This document shows, piece by piece, positions 151 to 49,389 of a stretch of DNA of 56,132 bases (position 1 is the stretch's first letter; the number at the start of each line of letters is the position of its first letter). The DNA lies in the NCBI GenBank assembly GCA_029553475.1, contig JAKPKV010000034.1, positions 1 through 56,132 of the forward strand, read 5' to 3'. The notes below the pieces were generated by a model. The model was given only the letters and a program-made list of their open reading frames with translations, had not been told where the DNA came from and made no database searches. The position numbers were made by a program, and so were the translations under genes. The stretch comes from Armatimonadota bacterium (GTDB lineage: Bacteria; Armatimonadota; Hebobacteria; CAIYQO01).

Positions 151-1926
151 CTACACCGCCTCCCGCAGCTTCTCCAGCATCTCCTCCAGCGGCACGTGTT
201 GGATTTGCGCCGCCTGCGCCAGGGTGATGCGGCGGCCGATGGTGGCGCGCAGCAGGGGATTGGCAATGGGGGCAAACCCCATGGCGACCAGCACCTCCAC
301 CGTCTGCGGGTAGGCGTCCACCAGCCGCGCCACGGTGAGCGAGGGGGAGATCTCCGGCGCCCCCTCCTCCTCCGCCTCGTCCGGCGCGCGGCAGGGGGTC
401 GGCGGCGCGGGGCTGTAGATCGTGCGCAGCAGGTTGTACCCAAACAGCGCCAGCCCGACCAGCTCGAACCAGCCGGAGAGGCCCGCCACCGTGAAGGGCC
501 AGGCGCCGAAGGGCACGGTGAGCGCCTGAAAGACCACGCGCAGCGTGTTGCCGACCATCATCAGCGCGAAGGTGGCGTTGAGCAGCCGCGCGCTGTAGAC
601 CGGCCGCCCGAGGAAGACCGGCACCACGCGCATGGCGTAGCCGAGGATGATGAAGGTGATGAATCCCACGGTGAGCGCGTGGCGGTAGCTGCCCATCAGC
701 GCGTGCGGCGCCGGCGCGCCGCTGAGCGCGTGGTAGGCCGTGAGCGCGGCGATGCCGACGACCGAGACGAGCAGCCAGCCGTAGGCCGCGTACACGAACT
801 TCTCGTACGCCCGCGCCGCCGCATCCATGCCGTCGGCGGGGGTGACCGTGCGTTTGAAGAGGCCCAGATTCCAGATGAAGCCGAGCAGGCCGACGCATTC
901 CATCGCCGCCGGCAGCAGCAGCGCGGCCGGCGCCAGCCGCCCGGTGCCGACCAGCACGTCACCGGCCGCGCGCAGGAGGAAGCCGCCGACGATGAGCGGG
1001 AAGACCAGGCGGTCCAGCCGCGGGTTGATCTCCGGCTTGCCAAGGAAGACCGGCAGCGTGCGCAGGCTGACGCCGAAGATGAACATGCTCGCAAAACCGG
1101 TGAGCTGCAAATGCCGGTAGGCCCAGTTCCACGCCGGCGGCAGCACCGCCGTGCCCTGCGCCGCCATCACGCTCAGCAGGGCCGCGTTCATGACGCCCAT
1201 CGCCACGAATCCGAGCGTGCCGGTCACCAGGTACTTATCCGAGGGGTCGGCGGGCGTGGTGCCGTGGCGCAGCGTCTCGACGACCACCGCCGCGAACGCA
1301 AGGATGCCCGCCAGCTCCATGAGCCCCGCCAGCACCGGGATGGGGGCCAGCGCGGGGCTGGCCATGAACGGGCGATAGACGGCATGCAGCAGCACGCCGC
1401 CCGCCATCAGCCAGAAGGAGGCGTATCCCAGGCCCGCGTGGCGCAGCGGCGTGGCCTTCAGCCGCGGCAGCACGTGGTAGGCGACGCCCATGATGAAAAG
1501 CGCCACCCAGCCGAAGATCTGCACGTGACCGTGCGCCTGGTTGCCGACGGTGAGCCAGGCGAGAAACGCCCGGTGATAGCCGATGAGCGAGAGATTGATG
1601 GCGCCCCACAGCACGCCGCCGGTGAGCACGAAGGCCACCGCCGTCACCAGGAAGCGGCGGTACAGGTCATCGGCAGGGGCGGCGGGCGTCGGCGCGGCGG
1701 GCACCGGCGCGGTCGTGTCGGCGGCCGCGCTGTGGGCAATGGCCTCGCGCAGCTCGGCCAGCAGGCGCTCCGGCGCCACCCGGTGCACGCGGGCGAACCA
1801 GCCCAGCGGCTCGTCCGGCCCGGCGGCGCCGCCGCATTCGAGCAAGCCGTAGCGCGCCATCACCGGCCGTGTCTGCGGCCACGTTGATAGGATCTCGCGT
1901 AGCGACGTGCGTTCCGTGATGTCCAT
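151..1926 (-). CDS. NnrS-like polytopic membrane protein with a DUF1858-type domain at each end
   Basis: A 591-residue inner-membrane protein. Residues about 1-65 form a small helical domain of the DUF1858 kind (TSLREILSTWP). The middle, about 110-500, holds roughly twelve hydrophobic segments, and about 525-591 is a second DUF1858-like domain (LTVARLVDAYPQTVEVL). Core motifs AHGHVQIFGW, YHVLPRL and two LPVFLG/VPVFLG loops resemble NnrS proteins and the haem-copper oxidase subunit I fold. No HPEVY copper motif is visible, so a terminal oxidase is unlikely. NnrS proteins are linked to nitric-oxide stress; that role here is inference. The ATG at 1926 has GGAGGGGGG just upstream. An in-frame ATG at 1998 would lie upstream of the predicted transcription start near 1950, so it was not used. 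The FNR-like site upstream fits oxygen- or NO-responsive control. Confidence 0.75.
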   Translation of the reverse strand: MDITERTSLREILSTWPQTRPVMARYGLLECGGAAGPDEPLGWFARVHRVAPERLLAELREAIAHSAAADTTAPVPAAPTPAAPADDLYRRFLVTAVAFVLTGGVLWGAINLSLIGYHRAFLAWLTVGNQAHGHVQIFGWVALFIMGVAYHVLPRLKATPLRHAGLGYASFWLMAGGVLLHAVYRPFMASPALAPIPVLAGLMELAGILAFAAVVVETLRHGTTPADPSDKYLVTGTLGFVAMGVMNAALLSVMAAQGTAVLPPAWNWAYRHLQLTGFASMFIFGVSLRTLPVFLGKPEINPRLDRLVFPLIVGGFLLRAAGDVLVGTGRLAPAALLLPAAMECVGLLGFIWNLGLFKRTVTPADGMDAAARAYEKFVYAAYGWLLVSVVGIAALTAYHALSGAPAPHALMGSYRHALTVGFITFIILGYAMRVVPVFLGRPVYSARLLNATFALMMVGNTLRVVFQALTVPFGAWPFTVAGLSGWFELVGLALFGYNLLRTIYSPAPPTPCRAPDEAEEEGAPEISPSLTVARLVDAYPQTVEVLVAMGFAPIANPLLRATIGRRITLAQAAQIQHVPLEEMLEKLREAV

Positions 1927-1956
1927 GGTCCCCCCTCCGGCATCAGCTCCAGGGTC

Positions 1957-1999
1957 ATCATAGCGCACGTGCCGGCCAGCGAATATGACATAAATCATG
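1957..1999 (-). promoter_or_regulatory. Probable class II FNR/CRP-type promoter
   Basis: On the minus strand a TATGAT -10 element lies at 1962-1957, giving a start near 1950. A palindrome with ATGA and TCAT arms and a 6-nt spacer lies at 1985-1998 in an AT-rich patch. Its centre (about 1991.5) is 41.5 bases upstream of that start, the standard distance for class II activation by FNR/CRP-family proteins. No good -35 is present, as expected for an activator-dependent promoter. The motif is short, so this is suggestive only. Confidence 0.45.
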
Positions 2000-2182
2000 T
2001 TTTTTATATTTATCGTGGATGCCCGATGTTCGCATCGTCGCCCTGCCGATGGCGGCAGCGCATCGCCGTGTATCCGGCGAGGGTTAGCCCGAACCGGAAC
2101 GGGGAATATGCCTATGGATGCAGCCTGCCCCTGCTGCGTCAGCGATGCCGGCGTATCCCACGCGGCCGAGCCGGCCCTTTCC
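2000..2182. other. Intergenic stretch with no gene seen
   Basis: This is the promoter-distal part of the gap between the divergent NnrS-like gene and the sugar dehydratase gene. I see no open frame with a ribosome binding site and no convincing structure in it. Confidence 0.5.
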
Positions 2183-2212
2183 TTGACAGGGAAAACAGGC
2201 AGGGATTACAAT
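2183..2212 (+). promoter_or_regulatory. Sigma-70-type promoter for the nucleotide-sugar cluster
   Basis: TTGACA at 2183-2188 and TACAAT at 2207-2212 are separated by 18 nt. A start near 2219 gives a leader of about 180 nt before the ATG at 2402. The leader contains a strong hairpin at 2327-2343 (CCCCCGG, loop TTG, CCGGGGG), which could affect expression of the cluster. Confidence 0.65.
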
Positions 2213-2401
2213 ATTGCCGGCATCGTTACGTTCTTGCCATGCCGTCCTGTGCATGCATGGTCCGTATTCGCAGGCAGGGGTGCTTGTTCTTCATCACGAC
2301 GCCGAGTGTGTCGGGTATCGGCAATCCCCCCGGTTGCCGGGGGCATGAAGACCGTCTACTGGAGTCCGCGACCATGTCGTCTCCGGGGAGATGACGCCAT
2401 C

Positions 2402-4384
<1,983 letters not shown>

Positions 4385-38139: not shown

Positions 38140-41019
38140 TCAGAAGTTCCAGGACAACTGCGCGTTGAGACGCCGCGCGTTATAGTCGAGGTTCGCATTC
38201 ACGTCGTCCGCGTAGTGCAGCTGCTGGGCGTTGAGGGTGAGGGTGAGCTGGTCGGTGAGGTGATAATTCCACCCCAGCCCGATCGTCTGCTTCCGGGAGC
38301 CGCTGGGGAAGCCGGAGTTGCGCAGCGTTTCGCCGGCGACGAAGATATCGTGCTTGTCCGCCACCGGGTAGGTGACTTTCGCCGCCAGCGTGGTCAGTTT
38401 GTTGCCGGTGGTGGTGACGGCGGCGTCATCAGCGACTTGCGCCATCACCACCTGCCGCTGCGCGAGGGCTTCCGTTTGATACATCTGCGCCACGCCGAAG
38501 GAGTTTTCGCCCCAGATGCGCTGGGCATCGAGATTCACGATGGCTTTGCCCAGCTCCACCTGCGTGCTGGCGCCGAGCATGTTATTCACCGACGAGCCCA
38601 GCAAATCCGTGTAGTTCAGGTTCTGGCGGTTCCAGTACCCGTTCAGCGACACGCGCGAGGTGGGCTGCCACCAGGCGTTGGCGGCCAGCATCGTTGAGTC
38701 GCTGTTGCTGTATTCGCCCCCGCGCGCGCTGTTCGTCGTGTAGCTCAGGCCGACGGAGAGATTCGCGCGCGCCTGCCAATCCGCGCCCAGCGAGAGGTCG
38801 GTGCTGGTCTGCGCCGGCACGTCGCTGCCGGAGGCCGTGCGGGTGGCGTCGGTTTTCGTCGTCGTCAGGTTGCTGTTCAGCGTCAACCGGTCGCTGACGC
38901 GGTAATGCGCCGACACCTGGGCGTTGCGGCCGGCGCTGGTGGTCGCCACGCCGTCGGTATCCGAGTTGATCGTATTCGTCGCCAGGTTCGCGCTGACGTT
39001 CAGCCGGTCATTCGGCGCGTAATTCAGGTTCAGCGACGCGTCATGCGTGGTGGCGCGATAGTGATAAATCGGGTCCGTCGCCTGCGGCGTATCGGGCAGC
39101 GGTTGATACGGGTCCGCGGAGTAGCGGAACTGCCGGGTATCAATATTGCGCCGATTGAGATGCAGCGACGCGGTGAGCGGGCTTTTATCCCAGGTGATGG
39201 ACAGCGAGTCCGTCACCGAGGCATCGCCCAGCCCCTCGCTGCCGAGTTGGCTCGAATCGCGGGTAGTGCGGCGCAGGCTGAGCGCCGGCCAGTCCTCGCG
39301 CCGGTATTCCACGCCGTACGTCCGGTTCTTCTCCTCCATCAGAATATTATCCACCGACGAATACGGATTATACGGCAGCGTGGTGTTATCGCCGCTGGTG
39401 GAAAAGGTCAGCTCCGCGGTGGGCATGTAGCTGGCGCCCCACTCCAGCGCATCGCGCACATTGCGATACCCGGCGCGCTCGATGGGCGAGAAACCGGAAT
39501 CCACCCGGCGATAGGCGGCGTTGGCGGCGACGTGTTCGTTGCCGAAATTCGCGGTGAGCGCCAGCGCGCCGTCACCCTGCAGCGCGACGGTGCGCCCTTC
39601 GGTGGAATAGGACACAAAGAGCGTGGGGCCGAGATTGGAGATCGGGATATCCGCCCGCAGGATGCGCAGCTCGCCCGTCTGGTAATTGAGGATATATTCC
39701 GTGCCGCGCACGAGGGGCAGCGCCAGCGCGCGCACCGTATCGGTATTCGGCATCACCGGCGTTTTCCGCAGGTGGAAGACCTGCTGGGTGACGGGGATGC
39801 CCGCCTGCACGGTGAACTGCTCGTCCTTGATCTGTTCGGCCGCGATATGCTGCACGCCGCCGCCGGTGCTTTTCGCCGCCTGCAGGCCGAGCTGCAGGCC
39901 ATGCTGCGCCCAGTTCACGTCCACGCCGGTGACCGCGCGGTCGCCGCTGCTCGCCGCCGTCACCTGCGTCACCGCGTAGCGCACGATGACGGTGGAGCCC
40001 GGCGGGGGTTCGTTGCCGCCGGCAAAGAGCAGGCGGCCGGTGGTGTGGTCCAGGGTATAGGCCGCCCCGCGCGCCTGCAGCACGCCGTTGATGGTCACCG
40101 TCTCCGATTCCGGCACGATGGGACGGAAGGTGAGATAAAACGGACCCGGCGTGCCGGTGCCGAGGAACTGGTCGCGCTCATCGCGCTGCGTGCTGCCGCC
40201 GCCACTGCGTCCGTTCAACTGGATATGCGTGGCGCCCACCGACAGCGCGTCGGTGAGGGGATAAAAGCCGCGCACCGCCGTCAACCGCCCGCCGCCGCCC
40301 CCGCTGATGGACACCTCGTAGCTCACCGTCACCCGGTCCGCCGGGCTGATGATGGAAGTCGAGGTGAAATTGAGGATGCCATTCTGATAATCGAGGGTAT
40401 ATTCCCGACCGCGCTCCTTCGGCAGGTCATTCACCGTCACCACCTCGCTGTATTCCACCACGGGCGTGGCGGTGAGGTAATACGGTCCGCTCACGTTGCG
40501 GCCATAGAAGATGTCGGTCTTCACCGGCGACTTCAGATCGCTGCCGATGACGGATAATCCGCCTTTCGGCAGCACGGCGTCCACCTGCACCCCCTGCAGG
40601 TTGCGGTTGAGGGTGACGAACTCGTTGCCGCCCATCGTCGCGGTGAACTCGCCGAGCAGCGTTTTCGCGTCGGAGCCATCGTGGCGCAGGCTCCAGCGGA
40701 AGCGGTCCGGCGCGTATTCATCCGCGGTGACCGTGGCGTCCAGATAGAAATCCTTGTAAAGCTGCCCGTTCAGATACAGATTGGAGTTGTGCGTGAAGGT
40801 GCGGCTGGCGCCGTAGTTGTCATCCTGGAAGTAGCTTTGCGAGCCGGAGACGCTGCTGACGTTCAGCGAGAGGGAGTTGTTCCCGCTGACCTCCAGCTTC
40901 GGGTACCCTTTAATGGGGGTAATTGGGATCATATACGCGTAGACCGGCTCGGCGAAGGTACACCAGGGCATGAGCAGCATCACGAGCCAGGCCAGCGCGC
41001 GCTTTTGACGAAGATTCAT
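38140..41019 (-). CDS. Outer-membrane beta-barrel surface protein with SprA-like repeats
   Basis: A 959-residue exported protein. The signal peptide (LAWLVMLLMPWCTFAEPVYA) is followed by an N-terminal beta region and three related units at about 178-240, 290-352 and 412-475. Each has a V-x-V-x-x-x-x-x-x-RG-x-x-Y-x-L-x-Y-x-x-G-x-L pattern (RGREYTLDYQNGILNF, RGAAYTLDHTTGRLLF, RGTEYILNYQTGELRI). Similar units occur in SprA-like cell-surface proteins. From about 500 on, alternating amphipathic strands rich in Asn/Thr/Ser/Tyr continue to a last strand, LNAQLSWNF, whose terminal Phe is the BAM-targeting signature. The protein probably forms a large barrel in the outer membrane. ATG 41019 begins the signal peptide; AAGGA lies 14 nt upstream. 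A MITE ends 20 nt before the start codon. Confidence 0.72.
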   Translation of the reverse strand: MNLRQKRALAWLVMLLMPWCTFAEPVYAYMIPITPIKGYPKLEVSGNNSLSLNVSSVSGSQSYFQDDNYGASRTFTHNSNLYLNGQLYKDFYLDATVTADEYAPDRFRWSLRHDGSDAKTLLGEFTATMGGNEFVTLNRNLQGVQVDAVLPKGGLSVIGSDLKSPVKTDIFYGRNVSGPYYLTATPVVEYSEVVTVNDLPKERGREYTLDYQNGILNFTSTSIISPADRVTVSYEVSISGGGGGRLTAVRGFYPLTDALSVGATHIQLNGRSGGGSTQRDERDQFLGTGTPGPFYLTFRPIVPESETVTINGVLQARGAAYTLDHTTGRLLFAGGNEPPPGSTVIVRYAVTQVTAASSGDRAVTGVDVNWAQHGLQLGLQAAKSTGGGVQHIAAEQIKDEQFTVQAGIPVTQQVFHLRKTPVMPNTDTVRALALPLVRGTEYILNYQTGELRILRADIPISNLGPTLFVSYSTEGRTVALQGDGALALTANFGNEHVAANAAYRRVDSGFSPIERAGYRNVRDALEWGASYMPTAELTFSTSGDNTTLPYNPYSSVDNILMEEKNRTYGVEYRREDWPALSLRRTTRDSSQLGSEGLGDASVTDSLSITWDKSPLTASLHLNRRNIDTRQFRYSADPYQPLPDTPQATDPIYHYRATTHDASLNLNYAPNDRLNVSANLATNTINSDTDGVATTSAGRNAQVSAHYRVSDRLTLNSNLTTTKTDATRTASGSDVPAQTSTDLSLGADWQARANLSVGLSYTTNSARGGEYSNSDSTMLAANAWWQPTSRVSLNGYWNRQNLNYTDLLGSSVNNMLGASTQVELGKAIVNLDAQRIWGENSFGVAQMYQTEALAQRQVVMAQVADDAAVTTTGNKLTTLAAKVTYPVADKHDIFVAGETLRNSGFPSGSRKQTIGLGWNYHLTDQLTLTLNAQQLHYADDVNANLDYNARRLNAQLSWNF

Positions 41020-41039
41020 CGGTATGAGCAGCGTCCTTA

Positions 41040-41228
41040 GAAACTGTCTTGCAAGTGCTCGCCGCCGTCTCGCGGGTCTGTGACGTGGCTGGCGGCGTTG
41101 GAGTTCCTGGCATGGAGGTCTCCGCCCCATCATCCTGATGGCTCCCCCCGATACCCTCTCGGAACTCCGCCTTACCAGCCACGCCCCATCCTCCGCGATA
41201 CGACAACGATCACTTCCAAGACAGTTTC
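41040..41228. mobile_element. 189-bp MITE with IS5-like terminal inverted repeats
   Basis: The left end GAAACTGTCTTGCAAGTGC and the inverse of the right end, GAAACTGTCTTGGAAGTGA, agree at 20 of the first 22 bases. TTA flanks both sides (41037-41039 and 41229-41231) as a probable 3-bp target duplication, fitting the TNA type seen in parts of the IS5 family. No transposase is encoded, so it would have been moved in trans. It lies just upstream of the beta-barrel gene. Confidence 0.85.
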
Positions 41229-41434: not shown

Positions 41435-42553
41435 TCATCCCAACCGTTTGCTGAATCGCGCCGCCGCCAGCGAGAGTATCGCGATGCCGAAGACCGCCAG
41501 CGCGATCACCTGCGGCCAGAGGACGTCCATCCCCACGCCGCGCAGGAAGATGCCGCGGACGATTTCCAGGAAGTAGCGCAGCGGGATGAGATAGGTGACC
41601 CCCTGGATGGCCGCCGGCATATTCTCCACCGGGAAGATGAAGCCGGAGAGCAGGATGAACGGCATGAAGCAGAGGAAGCTGGAGAGGGTGGCCTCGTGCT
41701 GCGTCTTCGAGATGGTGGAGATGAAGATGCCCAGCCCCAGCGAGGTCATGAGAAAGAGGGCGCTGAGCGCAAAAAGCAGCGGGATGCTGCCGGCCACCTC
41801 GACGCGGAAGATGAGGATGGCGGTGAGCAGGGTGAGCACGATCTCAATAAGGCCGATGAGCAGGAACGGCAGCGTTTTCCCCAGCATCAGCTCGCCGGCG
41901 GACAGGGGCGTCACCACCAGTTGCTCCAGCGTGCCGATCTCCCGCTCGCGCACGATGGCCAGCGCGGTCATCAGCATGGTGATGAGGAAGAGGACCATGC
42001 AGAGCACCCCCGGCACCATGAAATACACGCTCTTCAGCTCCGGGTTGTACCAAACGCGGACGCGCCCATCCACCGCCGGCAGCCGCGCGCGCGGCGCGCG
42101 CGTCTGCACAATCTCGCCCCCGTAGACCCGCAGCACCCCGTTCGTGTATCCCGCAATCACCCGCGCCATGCGCGAGTCGGCGCCGTCGAGGATGGTCTGA
42201 ATCTCCGCGCCGCGCCCGCGCGCCAGGGCATGCCCGAAGCCGCGCGGCACGCGCAACACCAGCGCCGCCCGTCCGGCGTCGAGCAGCGCGTCAATCTCCC
42301 GCTGCCCGGACAGGTAGGCCACCTGGTCAAAGTAGCCCGACGCGGTGAAGCGCCGGATGAGCGCGCGGCTCTCCGCCGTGCGGTCTTCATCCAGCACCGC
42401 CATAGCGACGTGATTGACATCCGTGCTCACCGCGTAGCCGAAGAGAAACAACTGCACCACCGGCACGACGAAGAGGAACGCGAGAATCCGCCGGTCACGC
42501 CGTATCTGGATGAGCTCTTTTTTCATGAGACGCAGGATGCGATGGAGGTTCAT
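41435..42553 (-). CDS. ABC-2 type permease, second subunit (YbhR-like)
   Basis: A 372-residue inner-membrane protein with the ABC-2 exporter layout: one N-terminal helix (ILAFLFVVPVVQLFLFGYAV), a large periplasmic domain (about 45-175; VAMAVLDEDRTAESRALIRRF), then five helices. Motifs VREREIGTLEQLVVTPLS in the coupling loop and SGFIFPVENMP near the end are typical. It matches E. coli YbhR and pairs with the upstream permease, whose stop overlaps its start (ATGA). Last gene of the seven-gene operon. The substrate is probably a drug or toxic small molecule by analogy, but is not determined by sequence. Confidence 0.9.
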   Translation of the reverse strand: MNLHRILRLMKKELIQIRRDRRILAFLFVVPVVQLFLFGYAVSTDVNHVAMAVLDEDRTAESRALIRRFTASGYFDQVAYLSGQREIDALLDAGRAALVLRVPRGFGHALARGRGAEIQTILDGADSRMARVIAGYTNGVLRVYGGEIVQTRAPRARLPAVDGRVRVWYNPELKSVYFMVPGVLCMVLFLITMLMTALAIVREREIGTLEQLVVTPLSAGELMLGKTLPFLLIGLIEIVLTLLTAILIFRVEVAGSIPLLFALSALFLMTSLGLGIFISTISKTQHEATLSSFLCFMPFILLSGFIFPVENMPAAIQGVTYLIPLRYFLEIVRGIFLRGVGMDVLWPQVIALAVFGIAILSLAAARFSKRLG

Positions 42554-43686
42554 AACGTCCTCCGGAACCGGTTCGCGCTCAGCAGCACCATCGCCACCGC
42601 GATGACGGCGAGCACGAGGGCGGGCTGCCAGAGGATGGCCAGCGTGTTGCCTTTCAAAAAGATGCCGCGCAGGATGCGGATGAAGTGGGTGGCGGGGATG
42701 AGAGCGGTCAACAGTTGCACGGCCTGCGGCATGCTGCTGATGGGGAAGATGAAACCGGAGAGGAGCACGGTGGGCAACTGGGTGGCCATCACCGCCGCCA
42801 CCATCGCCACCTGCTGGGTCGGCGCCACCGTGGAGATGAGCAGCCCGATGCCCAGCGCCGCGATGACGAAAATGCCGGCGAGCGCCAGCACCAACGCCGG
42901 ACTGCCCACCAGCGGCACGTGAAAGACGACGGCGCTCACCGCCATCACCAGCAGCACGTCGCCGAAGGCGATGAGGACGTAGGGCGCCAGCTTGCCGAGC
43001 ATGAGCTCCAGCGGGCGCACCGGCGACGCCAGCAGACCCTCGATAGTGCCGCGCTCGCGCTCGCGCACCACCGTCACCGAGGTGAGCAGCGCCGCCAGCA
43101 TCATGAGGATGACGGCGATGAGACCGGGAATGGTGAAATGATTGCTGCGCAGCTCCGGGTTGTACCAGTAGCGCGCCCGATTCTCCACCGGTTGCCCCGT
43201 CGCCGGCGCGGTGAGGCCGGCGCGGCGTGCCGCCTCCAGCGCCACGTGTGACGAGTATTGCTGCAGGATGTCCGCCGCGTAGCCCAGCGCCGTACTGGCG
43301 GTGGTGGAATCGGCGCCGTCCATCAGGACCTGGACCGGCGCCGTCTCGCCGTCAGCCAGCCGGCGGGCGAAGCGGGCGGGGATGATCAGCACCATGCGCG
43401 CCCGCCCGCCGTCGAGCAGCGCCGTCACCTCGCGGTCATTGCCGGGATAGGCGATGACGCGGAAGTAGCCGCTGCGCGCGAAGGCGTTCACCAGCTCGCG
43501 CGACTGCGGGCTGCGGCTTTGATCGTAGACCGCCATGCGCACGGCGCGCACGTCTAGGTTGATGGCGTAGCCATACAGGAGGATCATGAACGTCGGCAAC
43601 GCCACCACCACGGCGAGCATACGCGGGTCGCGGGCGATTTGCCGGAACTCCTTCCACATGATCATCCAGGTGCGCAGCAGCATCAT
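42550..43686 (-). CDS. ABC-2 type permease, first subunit (YbhS-like)
   Basis: A 378-residue inner-membrane protein with the same plan as its partner: an N-terminal helix (MLAVVVALPTFMILLYGYAI), a periplasmic domain (about 45-175; VRMAVYDQSRSPQSRELVNAF) and five C-terminal helices. VVRERERGTIEGLLASPVRP is the ABC-2 coupling helix and LSGFIFPISSMP the conserved late loop. The start overlaps the end of the ATPase gene by four bases. With YbhR-like it should form the heterodimeric channel energised by the two ATPases encoded upstream. Confidence 0.9.
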   Translation of the reverse strand: MMLLRTWMIMWKEFRQIARDPRMLAVVVALPTFMILLYGYAINLDVRAVRMAVYDQSRSPQSRELVNAFARSGYFRVIAYPGNDREVTALLDGGRARMVLIIPARFARRLADGETAPVQVLMDGADSTTASTALGYAADILQQYSSHVALEAARRAGLTAPATGQPVENRARYWYNPELRSNHFTIPGLIAVILMMLAALLTSVTVVRERERGTIEGLLASPVRPLELMLGKLAPYVLIAFGDVLLVMAVSAVVFHVPLVGSPALVLALAGIFVIAALGIGLLISTVAPTQQVAMVAAVMATQLPTVLLSGFIFPISSMPQAVQLLTALIPATHFIRILRGIFLKGNTLAILWQPALVLAVIAVAMVLLSANRFRRTL

Positions 43687-44630
43687 GCCCCCCTCTCCGC
43701 CTGCTCGATGAGGGCCACGAAGACATCGTCAAGCGACGGTCGCGCCGGCGCGAGGCGCTCGACGCGGATGCCGGCGGCGTCCAGCGCGGCCCGGACATCA
43801 TCCGCTTCGTCCGGGCCGCCGACCACCGCGTGCAGCGCCGAACCGAACAGCGCCACCTCGCGCACGGCCGGCAGGCTGGAGAGCCGTTCCAGCGCCGCCA
43901 TCACCGGCTCCGCCCGCACCTCCAGCAGCGTGCCGGCCATATAGCCGTCCTTCAACTCGGCCGGCGTGCCCAGCGCGATGATGCGGCCGCGATGCATGAG
44001 GGCGAGGCGGTCGCAGTGCTCCGCCTCATCCATGTAGTGCGTGGTGACGAAGATCGTGACCCCCTGCTCGGCGGCGGCGTAGATGAGCTCCCAGAAACGC
44101 CGGCGCGAGGCCGGGTCCACGCCGGCCGTCGGTTCATCGAGGAACAGCATTTCCGGTTCGTGCACCATGGCGCAGCCCAGCGCCAGCCGCTGCTTCCACC
44201 CCATCGCCAACTCGCCGGTGAGGCTGTCCTGGCGCTCGCGCAGGTTCGCCATCGCGAGGATCCACGCCGTGCGCCGGGCGAGGCGCGCGCCATATACGCC
44301 GTAAATCTCGCCGAAAAATTCGATATTCTCCGTGACGGTGAGGTCGTCGTAGAGCGAGAAGCGCTGGCTCATGTAGCCGATGCGCGTTTTGATCTGCTCC
44401 GTCTCGCGCACGATGTCCAGCCCCGCCACCGTGCCGCTACCCGCGGTGGGGGCGAGGATGCCGCAGAGCATGCGGATGGTGGTGGATTTCCCCGCGCCGT
44501 TCGCCCCCAGGAAGCCGAAAATCTCCCCCCGTCCCACCGTCAGCGAGATCTGATCCACCGCGGTGAAGCGCCCAAACGTCTTCACCAGCCCGCTGATGGT
44601 CACGGCAGCCTCGCCGCGCGTGCGCGTCAT
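43683..44630 (-). CDS. ABC transporter ATPase, second unit (C-terminal half of YbhF)
   Basis: A 315-residue ATPase. Walker A is GANGAGKST (about 43-51) and Walker B MLFLDEPTAGVDP, with the switch His in FVTTHYMDEAEHCDR. The signature, which normally reads LSGGxKQR, is degenerate here (LAMGWKQRLALG), as in the second half of E. coli YbhF. The C-terminal 90 residues form the accessory domain common in ABC-2 ATPases. ATG 44630 follows AGGGGGAGGC; the Gly-rich in-frame extension upstream is the other frame of the preceding gene. In E. coli the two units are one protein; here they are split with a 4-base overlap. They would form an asymmetric dimer. Confidence 0.9.
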   Translation of the reverse strand: MTRTRGEAAVTISGLVKTFGRFTAVDQISLTVGRGEIFGFLGANGAGKSTTIRMLCGILAPTAGSGTVAGLDIVRETEQIKTRIGYMSQRFSLYDDLTVTENIEFFGEIYGVYGARLARRTAWILAMANLRERQDSLTGELAMGWKQRLALGCAMVHEPEMLFLDEPTAGVDPASRRRFWELIYAAAEQGVTIFVTTHYMDEAEHCDRLALMHRGRIIALGTPAELKDGYMAGTLLEVRAEPVMAALERLSSLPAVREVALFGSALHAVVGGPDEADDVRAALDAAGIRVERLAPARPSLDDVFVALIEQAERGA

Positions 44631-45550
44631 GCCTCCCCCTCCCCCGCCGCCAGCGCGTTGAAGACATCCTCCAACCCCGGCGCGATGCGGCGCAGGGCGA
44701 TGAGCGTCAGCCCGTCCAGCGCCGCCGCCACCGTCGCCTCCGCGTCCGGCGTCTCCAGCCAGACGTGCAGGCGTTCGCCGAAGATGTGCACGTCCCGCAC
44801 GCCGGGCAGCGCCGCCAGCCGCGCCTTCGCCTCGCGCGGCGGCTCGGCGATCACCTCCAGTATGGCGCCGCGCAGGCCCGCCTTCAGCTCCCCCGGCGTG
44901 CCGCACAGCGCCAGCCCGCCGCGGTCCAGCATCGCCACCCGCGCGCAGCGCTCCGCCTCGTCCATATACGGCGTACTGAGAAAGAGCGTCACCCCCTGGC
45001 CCGCCAGCCGATAGAGGATGCGCCAGAATTCCCGCCGGGAGACGGGGTCCACGCCGGCCGTCGGCTCATCGAGGAAGAGCACCTCCGGGCTATGCATCAG
45101 CGTGCAGGCCAGCGCCAGCTTTTGCTTCATGCCGCCGGAGAGATACATTGCCAGCCGGTCGCGGAACGGCCCCAGCCGGCTGAATTCCAGCAGCTCCGCC
45201 TCGCGCGCCAGCCGCTCGGCCCGCGGCACGCCGTAGATACTGGCAAAAAAGCGCAGGTTTTCCGCCACGGTGAGGTCGCCGTACAGGGCGAAGCGCTGCG
45301 GCATGTAGCCGATGCGCCGCTTCAAGCCCTCCGCCTGCCGGAAGACATCCAGCCCCAGCACCCGCGCCGACCCGCCCGACGGCGCGAGGATGCCCGCCAG
45401 CAGCCGCATAGTGGTGGTCTTCCCCGCCCCATCCGGCCCCAGCAGCGCGAACACCTCGCCCCGCGCCACGGCAAGGGATAACCCCGCCAGCGCGACGAGT
45501 TCGCCGTAGGTCTTGCGCAAGCCCTGGATTTCGATGGCTATGTCGGTCAT
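44627..45550 (-). CDS. ABC transporter ATPase, first unit (N-terminal half of YbhF)
   Basis: A 307-residue ATPase with intact motifs: Walker A GPDGAGKTT (about 38-46), signature YLSGGMKQKLALA, Walker B VLFLDEPTAGVDPVS. In the switch region, TPYMDEAERC replaces the usual THYMDEAE, so the catalytic switch His is Pro. The pair therefore has one unit with a good signature but no switch His, and one with the His but a poor signature, consistent with a single working ATP site formed between them. ATG 45550; the binding site is weak. It is separated from hlyD by 197 nt that hold an inverted repeat, so its expression may differ from that of the upstream genes. Confidence 0.9.
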   Translation of the reverse strand: MTDIAIEIQGLRKTYGELVALAGLSLAVARGEVFALLGPDGAGKTTTMRLLAGILAPSGGSARVLGLDVFRQAEGLKRRIGYMPQRFALYGDLTVAENLRFFASIYGVPRAERLAREAELLEFSRLGPFRDRLAMYLSGGMKQKLALACTLMHSPEVLFLDEPTAGVDPVSRREFWRILYRLAGQGVTLFLSTPYMDEAERCARVAMLDRGGLALCGTPGELKAGLRGAILEVIAEPPREAKARLAALPGVRDVHIFGERLHVWLETPDAEATVAAALDGLTLIALRRIAPGLEDVFNALAAGEGEA

Positions 45551-45747: not shown

Positions 45748-47400
45748 TTACTTCACCGCGATCACCGCGTCCGCCGGCATGCCCGGCTTCAGGATGCGAT
45801 CCGGATTCTCGATTTCGATCTTCACGCCAAAGACGAGCTTGACGCGCTCTTCCTTCGTCTGGACGTTCTTCGGCGTGAATTCCGGCTCCTCGGCGATTGC
45901 CGTCACCGTGCCGCTGAAGGCGGTGCCGGCGTCAGTGGTCACCCGCGCGGCCTGGCCGATCGTCACTTTTTCGATCAGCGGCTCCGGCACGTAGACGCGC
46001 AGCCAGACGCGGTCAAGCCGGGCGATTTTCACGATGGGCATGCCGGGCGTGACCAGCTCGCCGGCTTCGGCGGCGCGCAGCGTCACCCGGCCGTCGGCGG
46101 GGGTGAGGATCGCCGTTTGCCCCGCGGTGGCGAGGGCGGTTTTCAGCGCCCCTTTCGCGCTCGCGACCCGCGCGCGGGCGGCGGCGATGGTCTGTGGGCG
46201 GGCGCCGGCCTGCGCGAGGTCGAGCGCCGCCCCCGCCGCGCGCGCCTGCGCCCGCGCCTGCTCCACCGCCCGGTCCGCCTCGCGCCGCTCCTGCGGGCGC
46301 GCCCCGTTCAGCGCCGCCCGCAGCCGTTCGCGGGCGATGGCGACGGCGGCCTGCGCTTCCGCCACTTCCTGGGGGCGCGCGCCGCTCTTCGCCGCTTCAT
46401 AGCGCTTGCGGGCGATCTCCACCTGCGCCGCCGCTTCCGCGCGTTCCTGGGGGCGGGCGCCGTTTTTCGCTTCCGCCAGCCGCTCCTGCGCCGCCTCGGC
46501 CGCCTGCCGCGCGGCCTGGATTTCCTGGGGGCGCGCGCCGGCTTTCGCCTCCGCCAGCCGCTCCTGCGCCGCCCGCAGTTGCGCCGCCGCCACCGCGCGC
46601 CGGGTGCGCGCCTGATCCACCGCCTGCCCGGCGAGGGCGCCCTGCGCTTCCAGCCGTTCCGCGCGCGCCAGCTCGGTCTCCGCGTCCGCCAGCGTCGCCG
46701 CCGCCGCGTTCGCCGCCGCGGCAAGCTGCTCGATGGTCTCCTTGCGCGGGCCGTCCTTCACCAGCGCGTACCGCGCCTCCGCCGCGCGCAGGTTTGCTTC
46801 CAGCACGGCGATCGTCTCGCGGCGCGGCCCTTCATTTATGAGCGCCTGCCGGGCTTCCGCGGCGTCCAGCGCCGCCTTCAACTGCGCCACCTCCTCCGCG
46901 CGCGGACCGTCCTTCACCAGCGCGAGCCGCGCCTCCGCCTGCGCCAGCGCGCCGCGCAACTGCGCCACCTCTTCGGGCCGGGCGCCGGCGTAGACCAGCT
47001 CCCGCCGGGCACGCGCCGCCGCCAGCACTTCCTCCGCTGCGTCGCGCTGCGCCCGCGCCCGGGCGATCTCCTCGACGCGCGTGCCGGCGGTGAGCTCGTT
47101 CAACGCCGCCTCCGCCGCCCGCAGATTGCCTTCCGCCGCCTCCACCTGCCCGGCGAGCTCCCCGCTGTCCAGCGTCGCGAGCAGCTCGCCGCCCTGCACG
47201 TCGTCGCCCACGTCGGCGGAGAGGGTGAGGATGCGCCCGGCGACTTTGCTGCTCACCTCGATCTCGGTGGCCTCGATGATGCCGTTGCCGGGGATACCCG
47301 TCACCGCGGCGCCCCGGCGCGCAGCCGCGTAGCGCCAGATGCCGCCCGCGACCAGCGCCAGCATCAGCACCATCAGGATGATACGGGCACGAGGTGTCAT
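45748..47400 (-). CDS. HlyD/YbhG-type periplasmic adaptor with an exceptionally long, mirror-symmetric alpha-hairpin
   Basis: A 550-residue membrane-fusion protein. An N-terminal anchor (IILMVLMLALVAGGIW) is followed by the first half of the lipoyl domain (IEVSSKVAGRILTLSADVGDDV, split around 48-70), a very long helical part (about 85-425), the second lipoyl half (ILTPADGRVTLRAAEAGELV) and the beta-barrel end (about 460-550). The helical part contains ten G-A/P/T-R motifs, most of them GARP/GPR followed by E, at Gly 106, 139, 165, 191, 217, 288, 314, 340, 366 and 399. E. coli YbhG has about 330 residues, so the hairpin is greatly expanded. The hairpin tip near 252 reads RLEAQGALAGQAVDQA, like the tips that meet TolC. 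It bridges the ABC-2 exporter to the TolC-like channel. ATG follows GGAGGATTGAG; one base separates it from the tolC-like stop. Confidence 0.9.
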   Translation of the reverse strand: MTPRARIILMVLMLALVAGGIWRYAAARRGAAVTGIPGNGIIEATEIEVSSKVAGRILTLSADVGDDVQGGELLATLDSGELAGQVEAAEGNLRAAEAALNELTAGTRVEEIARARAQRDAAEEVLAAARARRELVYAGARPEEVAQLRGALAQAEARLALVKDGPRAEEVAQLKAALDAAEARQALINEGPRRETIAVLEANLRAAEARYALVKDGPRKETIEQLAAAANAAAATLADAETELARAERLEAQGALAGQAVDQARTRRAVAAAQLRAAQERLAEAKAGARPQEIQAARQAAEAAQERLAEAKNGARPQERAEAAAQVEIARKRYEAAKSGARPQEVAEAQAAVAIARERLRAALNGARPQERREADRAVEQARAQARAAGAALDLAQAGARPQTIAAARARVASAKGALKTALATAGQTAILTPADGRVTLRAAEAGELVTPGMPIVKIARLDRVWLRVYVPEPLIEKVTIGQAARVTTDAGTAFSGTVTAIAEEPEFTPKNVQTKEERVKLVFGVKIEIENPDRILKPGMPADAVIAVK

Positions 47401-47401
47401 C

Positions 47402-48694
47402 TCAATCCTCCGTTCCCATCACGTACCGCAGCTCCGCCCGGGCGATCTGCCAGTCGGTCATCGCGCGCGTCATCCCCTGGCGGGCGCGGGCGAGCACCGA
47501 TTGGGCGTCCGCCACTTCGACCGGCGTCCCGACGCCCTCGCGATAGCGCACGTCCGCGATGCGCCGCGTCTCCTCCGCCAGTGCCAGCCGTTTTTGCGCG
47601 ACGGCATATTGCTCATGCGCCGATTCCACCCGCGCCAGCGCCGCGCGCACCTCGGCGGCGATGGCCACGCGCAGGCTCTCCCGCGCGGCGGCGGACTGGT
47701 CGCGCAGCGCTTCCGCCTCGCGCAGCTTCGCCCGCGCGGCGCCGCCGTCGAGGATCGGCAGTCCGGCAAAGAGCGCCGCCGTCCAGCTGGTGAGGTGCAG
47801 CGGCGTCTGCGGCGAAGCGATCTGATACTCACCTGCCAAGCTGAGCGTCGGCCGGCGCTCGCCCTTCGCGGCCTGCACCGCGCCTTCGGCGGCGCGAAGC
47901 TGCCACTCCGCCGCCTGCAATTCAGGACGCCGCCCATACGCCTCGGCGAGCGCCTGCGCTACCGATGGCGGCGCCATCGGCGCGGGCGTCGCGCCGTCCA
48001 CCGCCTGATACCGGCCCTGCGTTTCGCCCAGCGCGCGCAGCACCGCCGCGTGCGCGACAGCCAGGCCGGACTCCGCGCGCACCAGCTCCTGCCGCGCTTC
48101 CTCGACCTGCACTTCGGCGCGCAGCACGTCGTACCGGGGCGCCGCGCGCGCCTCCAGCCGCGCCTGCGCCGCCCGCAAGTGCTTCTGTGCCGCGGTCAGC
48201 GTCTGGAGGGCTGCCGCGCGCTCCTGCTGCGCCGCGAGCAGGGTATAAAAGGCGCGCGTCGTCTCGAAGCGTACCTGCTGATTGACGCGCGCCCGCGTCA
48301 TCTCCGCCGCCCGCGCCAGGCTGTCCGCCTGCCGCGCCGCTCCCTCCAGCCGGCCGCCGGAATAGAGCACCTGCGATGCCCCCAGCGTGGTGACCCAGTT
48401 CGTCTTCTCGCCCAGCGCCACCGCCGTGTTGAACAACGGCACCGCCACTTCCGGCACCTCGCTGGTCACGGCATAGCGTGAATCGAGGCGTAGCTGCGGC
48501 CGCTGGCTGGCGCGGCTGCGCGCCGCGACGGCGTCCGCACCCGCCGCCCGCGCCGCCGCCTCGCTCATCGCCGGCTGATGCGCCCACGCCCGCGCCAGCG
48601 CGTCCTCCAGCGTGAGCGGCACTGCTGCCTCCTGCTGGCCCCAGGCGGGCACGAGCAGTAGCAGCGCCAGCAGGGAGAGCGGGATGCGGTTCAT
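47402..48694 (-). CDS. TolC-like outer-membrane efflux protein
   Basis: A 430-residue exported channel subunit. Signal peptide about 1-19 (LSLLALLLLVPAWGQ), then two outer-membrane efflux protein repeats: TLEDALARAWAHQPAM, YAVTSEVPEVAVPLFNTA, GGRLEGAARQADSLARAAEM in the first half and GRRPELQAAEWQLRAAEGAV, GEYQIASP, GVGTPVEVADAQSVLARAR in the second. Length and the repeat of long helices with short strands suit the OEP family that trimerises into a trans-periplasmic tunnel. ATG has GGAGGCGACGCC upstream and overlaps the regulator's stop. Partner of the HlyD-type protein. Confidence 0.9.
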   Translation of the reverse strand: MNRIPLSLLALLLLVPAWGQQEAAVPLTLEDALARAWAHQPAMSEAAARAAGADAVAARSRASQRPQLRLDSRYAVTSEVPEVAVPLFNTAVALGEKTNWVTTLGASQVLYSGGRLEGAARQADSLARAAEMTRARVNQQVRFETTRAFYTLLAAQQERAAALQTLTAAQKHLRAAQARLEARAAPRYDVLRAEVQVEEARQELVRAESGLAVAHAAVLRALGETQGRYQAVDGATPAPMAPPSVAQALAEAYGRRPELQAAEWQLRAAEGAVQAAKGERRPTLSLAGEYQIASPQTPLHLTSWTAALFAGLPILDGGAARAKLREAEALRDQSAAARESLRVAIAAEVRAALARVESAHEQYAVAQKRLALAEETRRIADVRYREGVGTPVEVADAQSVLARARQGMTRAMTDWQIARAELRYVMGTED

Positions 48695-49329
48695 GGCGTC
48701 GCCTCCGGGAGTTCGGGATGCCGCCGCAGGGCGTGGTACAACAACAGCGCGAGCTCATCAACCAGCTCATCGCGGGCAATGCCGGCGTGCTGGCCGCCGA
48801 GCACGCCGTCCCAGAGGAGAAAATGCGCGATCAGCATGCCGAGCAGCGAGCGGGAGACGACCGCCGCGCGCACGGGACGAAAGCGCCCCTCGGCGATGCC
48901 GCGGGTGATGAACGCCTCCAACAGGCTGAGGCCGGCGCGCGCGACATGCTGGTAAAACGCTGCCGCCAGCTCCGCGTTGAAGAACGCCTCGCTCATCACC
49001 GCGCGCAGCACGTCGCGCCACGCGTCCCACAGCGCGAAGCGATTGTGGATGATCGCGCGCAGCACCGTCAAGTCATCCTGTTCGGCCATGCGCTCCAGCA
49101 GCTCGTGCAGCGGGGTGATGATGGCCGGCACGGAGAAGGCGAAGAGGATCTCCTGCTTGCTGGCGAAATGCTTGTAGATCGTCCCTTCGGAAATGCCCGC
49201 TTCCCGCGCGATTGCCTTCGTCGTCGTGCGGGCATATCCCTGGCGCGCGAACAGCCGCATCGCCGCCGCGAGAATCTCCTCCCGCCGCGCCTCCGCCGTC
49301 TTCCGCGTCCGTCTTCCCGCCCTCCCCAT
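48691..49329 (-). CDS. TetR/AcrR-family repressor of the efflux operon (YbiH/CecR-like)
   Basis: A 212-residue regulator. The N-terminal helix-turn-helix is typical (REEILAAAMRLFARQGYART, then TKAIAREAGISEGTIYKHF), and the remaining helices form the ligand-binding and dimer domain. E. coli ybhGFSR is likewise led by the TetR-type gene ybiH (cecR). The ATG at 49329 was chosen because the operator and the predicted transcription start (about 49355) lie over the in-frame GTG at 49359. GAAGG precedes the ATG. The gene leads the operon and its stop overlaps the tolC-like start, so it should repress its own transcription until an inducer binds. Confidence 0.9.
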   Translation of the reverse strand: MGRAGRRTRKTAEARREEILAAAMRLFARQGYARTTTKAIAREAGISEGTIYKHFASKQEILFAFSVPAIITPLHELLERMAEQDDLTVLRAIIHNRFALWDAWRDVLRAVMSEAFFNAELAAAFYQHVARAGLSLLEAFITRGIAEGRFRPVRAAVVSRSLLGMLIAHFLLWDGVLGGQHAGIARDELVDELALLLYHALRRHPELPEATP

Positions 49330-49346
49330 GCCGGCCGCCTTCTGTA

Positions 49347-49389
49347 AGTGAGTACTCACTCAGTATATACTACTCTCTGCGGTTGTCAA
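49347..49389 (-). promoter_or_regulatory. Promoter and TetR operator of the efflux operon
   Basis: Minus strand: TTGACA (49389-49384), 16-nt spacer, TATACT (49367-49362). The perfect palindrome AGTGAGTACTCACT at 49347-49360 begins just after the -10 and covers the start site near 49355, a classic TetR-family repressing position. Confidence 0.8.

Follow-up and report, generated by a model that had tools for sequence, protein, structure and literature searches.

The window analysed here, a 56,132-nucleotide stretch of contig JAKPKV010000034.1 (assembly GCA_029553475.1), comes from an uncultured Armatimonadota bacterium. Its minus strand carries, in order, genes for a TetR-family regulator, a TolC-like outer membrane factor, a periplasmic adaptor, two ABC ATPases and two ABC-2 permeases:

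48691..49359, minus: TetR-family regulator in the CecR position (TetR_N, E 2e-20; E. coli order cecR-ybhGFSR)
47402..48694, minus: TolC-like outer membrane factor, 430 aa, directly upstream of the adaptor (Pfam OEP, E 9e-53)
45748..47400, minus: YbhG-type (HlyD-family) periplasmic adaptor, 550 aa (NF002939, HlyD_D23, HlyD_3, identity to YbhG, Foldseek)
44627..45550, minus: ABC ATPase 1, first half of YbhF (43% identity to E. coli YbhF)
43683..44906, minus: ABC ATPase 2 (Pfam ABC_tran at 118-261; RbbA and DrrA-type matches)
42550..43686, minus: ABC-2 permease, YbhS-like (36% identity to E. coli YbhS)
41435..42553, minus: ABC-2 permease, YbhR-like (33% identity to E. coli YbhR)

This is the gene order of E. 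coli cecR-ybhG-ybhF-ybhS-ybhR, and the adaptor keeps the company of a YbhG-type protein: a YbhF-type ATPase, YbhS and YbhR permeases and an adjacent TetR gene, with 29-43% identity to the E. coli proteins. Unlike the E. coli ybh operon, which has no TolC of its own, the window operon includes a cognate outer membrane factor, encoded immediately upstream of the adaptor and of ordinary length. The ABC domain of the second ATPase begins at about residue 100 of the listed ORF, so that the true start is probably near 44630. By analogy with E. coli YbhFSR, the exporter may handle drug-like compounds. Beside the operon, at 38140-41133 on the minus strand, a 997-aa protein has repeated beta-rich segments and a weak C-terminal match to OMP_b-brl, below the cut-off; it is probably an outer-membrane beta-barrel.

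The adaptor matches the NF002939 (PRK03598) model with an E value of 8.6e-67. The score of 225.6 bits is below the equivalog cut-off of 393 and the match is split into three stretches, probably because the model contains only one pair of the GxR motifs described below. Pfam matches to HlyD_D23 (61.5 bits) and HlyD_3 (62 bits) are both above their cut-offs. E. coli YbhG is 29% identical to the C-terminal part of the protein and shares its EFTPK signature; EmrA and MacA are the top Foldseek matches, and the closest relatives are in Armatimonadota metagenome-assembled genomes. The protein probably serves as the adaptor in an ABC-2 exporter of the YbhGFSR type.

Motif geometry and predicted anatomy of the hairpin

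The glycines of ten GxR motifs fall at residues 106, 139, 165, 191, 217, 288, 314, 340, 366 and 399 of the translation, and there is no GxR elsewhere in the protein. They form five pairs that each sum to 505, with spacings of 33-26-26-26-71-26-26-26-33. The initial annotation had reported these positions, spacings and a common midpoint of 252.5, all of which are correct to the residue, as is its arithmetic that 33 equals 26 plus one heptad. When the hairpin was shuffled 20,000 times with its composition preserved, no shuffle had more than two GxR pairs sharing a centre, against the five observed.

With 22 long relatives as input, AlphaFold2 (AF2) gave a model of the adaptor at a mean pLDDT of 86.7 and a pTM of 0.45. 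The model and the Pfam matches show the two lipoyl/barrel-sandwich halves split around a helical hairpin, with strands at residues 35-77 and 430-548 flanking the helices:

47167..47298, minus: first lipoyl half and beta strands, residues 35-78 (AF2 strands 35-50, 55-60, 73-77; N landmark HMM)
46645..47163, minus: rising arm, residues 80-252 (AF2 helices 80-105, 108-138, 142-164, 168-190, 194-216, 220-252)
46630..46665, minus: TolC-docking tip, R246-x3-L250-x6-A257, loop 253-257 (RLS definition, conservation, AF2)
46120..46629, minus: falling arm, residues 258-427 (AF2 helices 258-287, 291-313, 317-339, 343-364, 369-398, 402-427)
46021..46113, minus: second lipoyl half, residues 430-460 (HlyD_D23 and HlyD_3 matches)
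GxR joints (translation, AF2):
47077..47085, minus: N1 (106-108)
46978..46986, minus: N2 (139-141)
46900..46908, minus: N3 (165-167)
46822..46830, minus: N4 (191-193)
46744..46752, minus: N5 (217-219)
46531..46539, minus: C1 (288-290)
46453..46461, minus: C2 (314-316)
46375..46383, minus: C3 (340-342)
46297..46305, minus: C4 (366-368)
46198..46206, minus: C5 (399-401)

In the model a helix break occurs at all ten GxR motifs, such that each arm consists of six helices, mostly 23 residues long in the hairpin chain. This is at odds with the straight, unbroken two-helix hairpin that had been expected. The breaks of the rising and falling arms sit at matching levels. The mirror centre of the glycines, 252.5, is about 2.5 residues ahead of the centre of the predicted tip loop, and the breaks of partner joints sum to about 507 where twice the tip-loop centre is 510, indicating that partner joints are at most about one helical turn apart in level and not exactly opposite. 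The suggestion that each motif faces its counterpart on the other arm thus agrees with the model as far as level is concerned; physical facing would follow from the register. The predicted arms of about 173 and 170 residues make a hairpin of about 343 residues in total, about 260 Å long at 1.5 Å per residue. An earlier estimate of about 146 residues and 220 Å per arm was too short, but its accompanying statement that the arms are far longer than those of AcrA or MacA holds.

The hairpin tip lies near the mirror centre. The original reading of the protein as a TolC-docking adaptor is supported. R246 is invariant among 22 homologues, and L250 and G254 are nearly so. The motif RxxxLxxxxxxS (RLS) is the adaptor tip sequence for TolC binding (PMC3391258); at the window tip R246 and L250 are correctly spaced, and the third position is Ala257 in place of Ser. 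A MacA S143A mutant retains some activity (PMC3391258).

The closest structural match is EmrA (Aquifex aeolicus 4TKO, E. coli 8ZAR), which also has a long hairpin. When solved, the EmrA hairpin was called “exceptionally long”, with 168 residues in two helices over 127 Å, and both helices have phase shifts at matching levels (PMC4158417). However, EmrA has about 80-84 residues per arm as compared with about 170 in the window adaptor, whose hairpin is about twice as long; no GxR modules have been reported for EmrA, and its partner is an MFS pump. MacA, AcrA and MexA likewise combine a lipoyl domain with a hairpin, an RLS-type tip and nearly equal arms, but their arms are about a quarter as long, they have a membrane-proximal domain, and their tips have the RLS Ser where the window adaptor has Ala.

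Paired arms and modes of lengthening

To measure arm length in homologues, the end of the first lipoyl half, the tip and the start of the second lipoyl half were each located with a profile of their own; these landmarks do not presuppose that the arms are symmetric. Measured in this way, the rising and falling arms are 177 and 174 residues in the window adaptor, 66 and 63 in E. coli YbhG, 40 and 37 in E. coli AcrA, and 47 and 44 in E. coli MacA, a difference of 3 in every case. The window arms are therefore about 2.7 times as long as those of YbhG, whose tip is flanked by a single GxR pair (GYR...GNR) where the window adaptor has five. The N-arm exceeds the C-arm by 3 or 4 residues in 158 of 215 adaptors. 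Among 212 distinct adaptors, the difference is 0-9 residues in all but seven, most of which are RND adaptors with another landmark offset; the rising arm of the others ranges from 54 to 236 residues. The 105 ABC-2-type adaptors hold 145 exactly mirrored GxR pairs where 4.4 are expected, and the window adaptor has the most (five of five). Simple relatives have a single pair, 71 residues apart, a 26-71-26 spacing is found in Planctomycetes and others, and the spacing of 57 in Ignavibacteria corresponds to one heptad fewer per arm. The proposal that module number changes pairwise is thus borne out in nearly all homologues. In the sister species G190 and G189, considered for module number within the genus and family, a contig break cuts the hairpin and no N-terminal half turned up.

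That the two helices of an adaptor lengthen together is already known in general: heptads are gained or lost on both sides of the coiled coil (Symmons 2015, PMC4446572). The present adaptors differ from that scheme in having units of 26, 33 or 71 residues jointed at GxR, and in that total length covaries between unrelated adaptors of a genome. In the window adaptor, modules N2-N4 share 15-16 of 26 residues with one another and modules C2-C4 share 15-17 of 26, as compared with mostly 4-12 of 26 between arms. At 46822..46971 on the minus strand, modules N2-N3 coincide with an imperfect tandem repeat of 78 bp, in which Tandem Repeats Finder counts 1.9 copies matching at 77%. The within-arm similarity and this repeat suggest that the two arms probably grew separately, each through tandem duplication. 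Recent duplication was considered and rejected, since third-position identity between copies is no higher than between other modules; the copies are old.

There is a second mode of lengthening, triplication of the 71-aa tip unit, which extends both arms together. In relatives with arms of 137 residues the hairpin consists of three 71-residue GxR-to-GxR units with the tip in the middle one; on average 23-27 of 71 residues are alike in register, as compared with nine off register. In 14 of 21 proteins the second-best match to the tip profile is exactly 71 residues past the tip, and several (L077, L086, L093, L109 and others) have degenerate tips at both plus and minus 71 residues. AF2 predicts the first unit of the 137-residue-arm relatives as a single straight 68-residue helix and the third unit with a short break. 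A search of the open-access literature found no description of 26/33-aa GxR modules, of 71-aa tip-unit triplication or of arms of such length.

One homologue is unpaired, an outcome that the initial annotation had named as refuting its reading. L111 (genome G212, ORF 544-2649, plus strand) has six tandem 71-aa tip-like units and arms of 279 and 205 residues, unequal by one 71-aa unit that retains a tip-like motif. Its first and second units have 77% DNA identity, which gives this the appearance of a real unpaired duplication, and L111 may be a snapshot of unpaired growth. Eight Chloroflexi loci (L022, L024, L036, L041, L042, L045, L050, L053) have long adaptor genes in adjacent pairs, with no recognisable tip and apparently unequal arms; such adjacent adaptors are possibly hetero-oligomeric. 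For want of a reliable tip, Chloroflexi loci with two adjacent adaptors were excluded from the conclusions. YbhG-type adaptors with equal arms (73/70) and a TolC-type tip sequence, GAISKQ, also occur in Desulfosporosinus (L055-L065) and Heliobacterium (L052), lineages usually regarded as monoderm.

Arm length and envelope depth

The proposed explanation, which we regard as likely as a whole, is that the window adaptor connects inner-membrane permeases to TolC by means of a hairpin that would be a stack of paired short helices, with GxR as the joint. At each joint the Gly would close one helix and the next would begin two to three residues later. With joints at matching levels on both arms, a two-helix rod would keep its register. 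Growth may have started from a 71-residue core with one GxR pair, as in the E. coli-sized relatives, and proceeded by three 26-residue pairs and one 33-residue pair. Selection would fit the added length to the distance between inner membrane and TolC in lineages with a deep periplasm, and all trans-envelope adaptors of a genome would be lengthened about equally. The adaptor presumably assembles as a hexameric tube.

Evidence that length is shared within a genome came from 35 Armatimonadota genomes, picked mainly for their spread of ABC-2 arm length; the other adaptors were gathered from each, with the nearest same-strand transporter gene taken as an adaptor's partner. ABC-2 arms rise with the median RND arm (26 genomes; r 0.94, slope 0.98, median offset 34 residues), also when family medians are used (r 0.92, 20 families), and with MacB arms (r 0.96, 17 genomes). 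Phylogenetic contrasts on a tree built from the globular parts of the adaptors themselves gave r 0.94 and slope 1.01 for RND arms, and r 0.95 and slope 1.04 for MacB arms. TamB is a lipid bridge that likewise spans the two membranes but has no homology to the adaptors; its length, taken as stop-to-stop ORFs, grows with arm length as well (Spearman 0.72 in 27 genomes and 0.80 in 19 families; contrasts r 0.50, p 0.013). Genome G253, whose 4300-aa frame is not credible as TamB alone, was excluded; with it, Spearman is 0.73. TamB among the relatives reaches a 2807-aa frame (G214). Most relatives have TamB; the window genome, which is 99.5% complete, has no Pfam TamB match. Control lengths changed little with the arm, with slopes of 0.32 aa per aa for the TolC ORF and 0.15 for the RND transporter ORF, neither significant at 0.05.

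Extrapolated to E. coli, the lines come close: from its ABC-2 arm of 66 they predict 33 for RND and 44 for MacB, and 40 and 47 are observed. The fit of the window genome is approximate, since its RND adaptor arms span 130-157 residues. Other phyla gave a mixed picture, with a looser relation. In most of their genomes, ABC-2 and RND arms fit (59/33-40, 66/33-40, 73/47, 87/54 and 92/61). The misfits are G291 and G295 (ABC-2 arm 92) and G302 (98), with RND arms of 33-40, although the TIGR01730 model favours short adaptors.

The joint rise of unrelated adaptor arms and TamB in the same genomes supports an unusually deep periplasm, as had been suggested from the window adaptor. The accompanying suggestion of a surface-layer role is not supported, and that reading was rejected: the adaptor ends at TolC, which is of ordinary length in the operon and hardly varies in length elsewhere.

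The length could instead reflect the transporter only, with ABC-2 permeases that lack a periplasmic domain requiring a long hairpin, as proposed for EmrA/EmrB. A literature statement for EmrA agrees with this (PMC13328181), as do ABC-2 arms about 34 residues longer than RND arms in the same genome (66 versus 40 in E. coli), and G291, G295 and G302 hint at long ABC-2 adaptors alongside short RND adaptors. However, such compensation gives a constant offset, not a range of 59-236 residues for one transporter type, and it leaves unexplained why RND arms rise with ABC-2 arms at a slope of about 1; the covariation of RND and MacB arms already disfavours it, and we consider it unlikely as the full account. 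The offset itself has the sign that the 70 Å periplasmic extension of RND transporters (PMC4158417) would give, and in the deep-periplasm explanation this extension would account for RND adaptors being about 34 residues per arm shorter.

Another possibility is that the extra length does not add reach: it could fold back, perhaps into a four-helix bundle like that known from CusB (PMC4446572), or make side hairpins, with a role in binding substrate or touching peptidoglycan. Helices broken every 26 residues would permit this, the pTM of the model is 0.45, and the unpaired 71-aa unit of L111 has kept a tip-like motif. Yet mirrored joint levels and equal arms are needed by an extended rod and not by folding back, and TamB length rises too, making fold-back improbable. 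Neutral expansion, in which Ala/Glu-rich tandem modules slip in number and selection acts on the equality of the arms and not on their length, draws on the tandem duplication evident from within-arm similarity (15-17 of 26) and the 78-bp repeat, but is very improbable given the age of the copies and the way in which arms of different transporter classes track at a slope of about 1 after phylogenetic correction.

Equal lengthening of unrelated pump adaptors within a genome suggests that rod length probably records the depth of the intermembrane gap, and the most likely reading is that the window hairpin matches a deep periplasm. If the rod is straight, the 111 residues by which each arm exceeds that of E. 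coli YbhG would correspond to a periplasm about 17 nm deeper than that of E. coli. We lean, with somewhat less assurance than for the explanation of the window adaptor, towards hairpin length being a ruler of envelope depth that can be read from genomes. All tripartite pumps and TamB would have been lengthened together across the phylum by paired modules, and Armatimonadota would include bacteria whose periplasm exceeds that of E. coli by about 5 to 23 nm in depth. No paper on such a ruler was found in the open-access literature (most subscription journals were outside the search), and a literature search found no published periplasm widths or electron microscopy for Armatimonadota.

The question of what determines periplasm depth, and of how machines that cross the envelope adjust to it, has been probed in E. 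coli by altering one tether, Lpp+21 (PMC8824477). If the arms are a ruler, nature has repeated this type of experiment many times in one phylum, with ABC-2 arms that range between about 100 and more than 220 residues and several unrelated machines shifting equally. About 1.5 Å of depth per arm residue is then predicted, so that the intermembrane distance of uncultured bacteria could be read from sequence. The register-safe growth of a two-helix rod would also be explained, through jointed modules at matching levels or triplication of a whole tip unit.

Geobacter is reported to have an unusually long Lpp (PMC8824477). In the Geobacteraceae genome G297 (L026, L301), the ABC-2 arm is 66 residues and the RND arm 40, the E. 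coli values; read with the adaptor ruler, this genome shows no lengthening of its pumps. Deinococcus SlpA/OmpM-type connectors have a coiled-coil length that suits a large periplasm (PMC9388160), as the adaptor arms may, but they are an unrelated tether between outer membrane and peptidoglycan and not part of a pump. The coiled-coil length of SLH/OmpM connectors was considered as a further ruler and set aside, since collagen-like and coiled-coil stretches are intermixed in the linkers, which give no clean measure. Seven Armatimonadota outer-membrane proteins (L334, L338, L340, L345, L348, L353, L354) are OmpM/SlpA-like, with one SLH domain and a coiled coil, and in these a collagen-like GPPG linker often precedes the beta-barrel.
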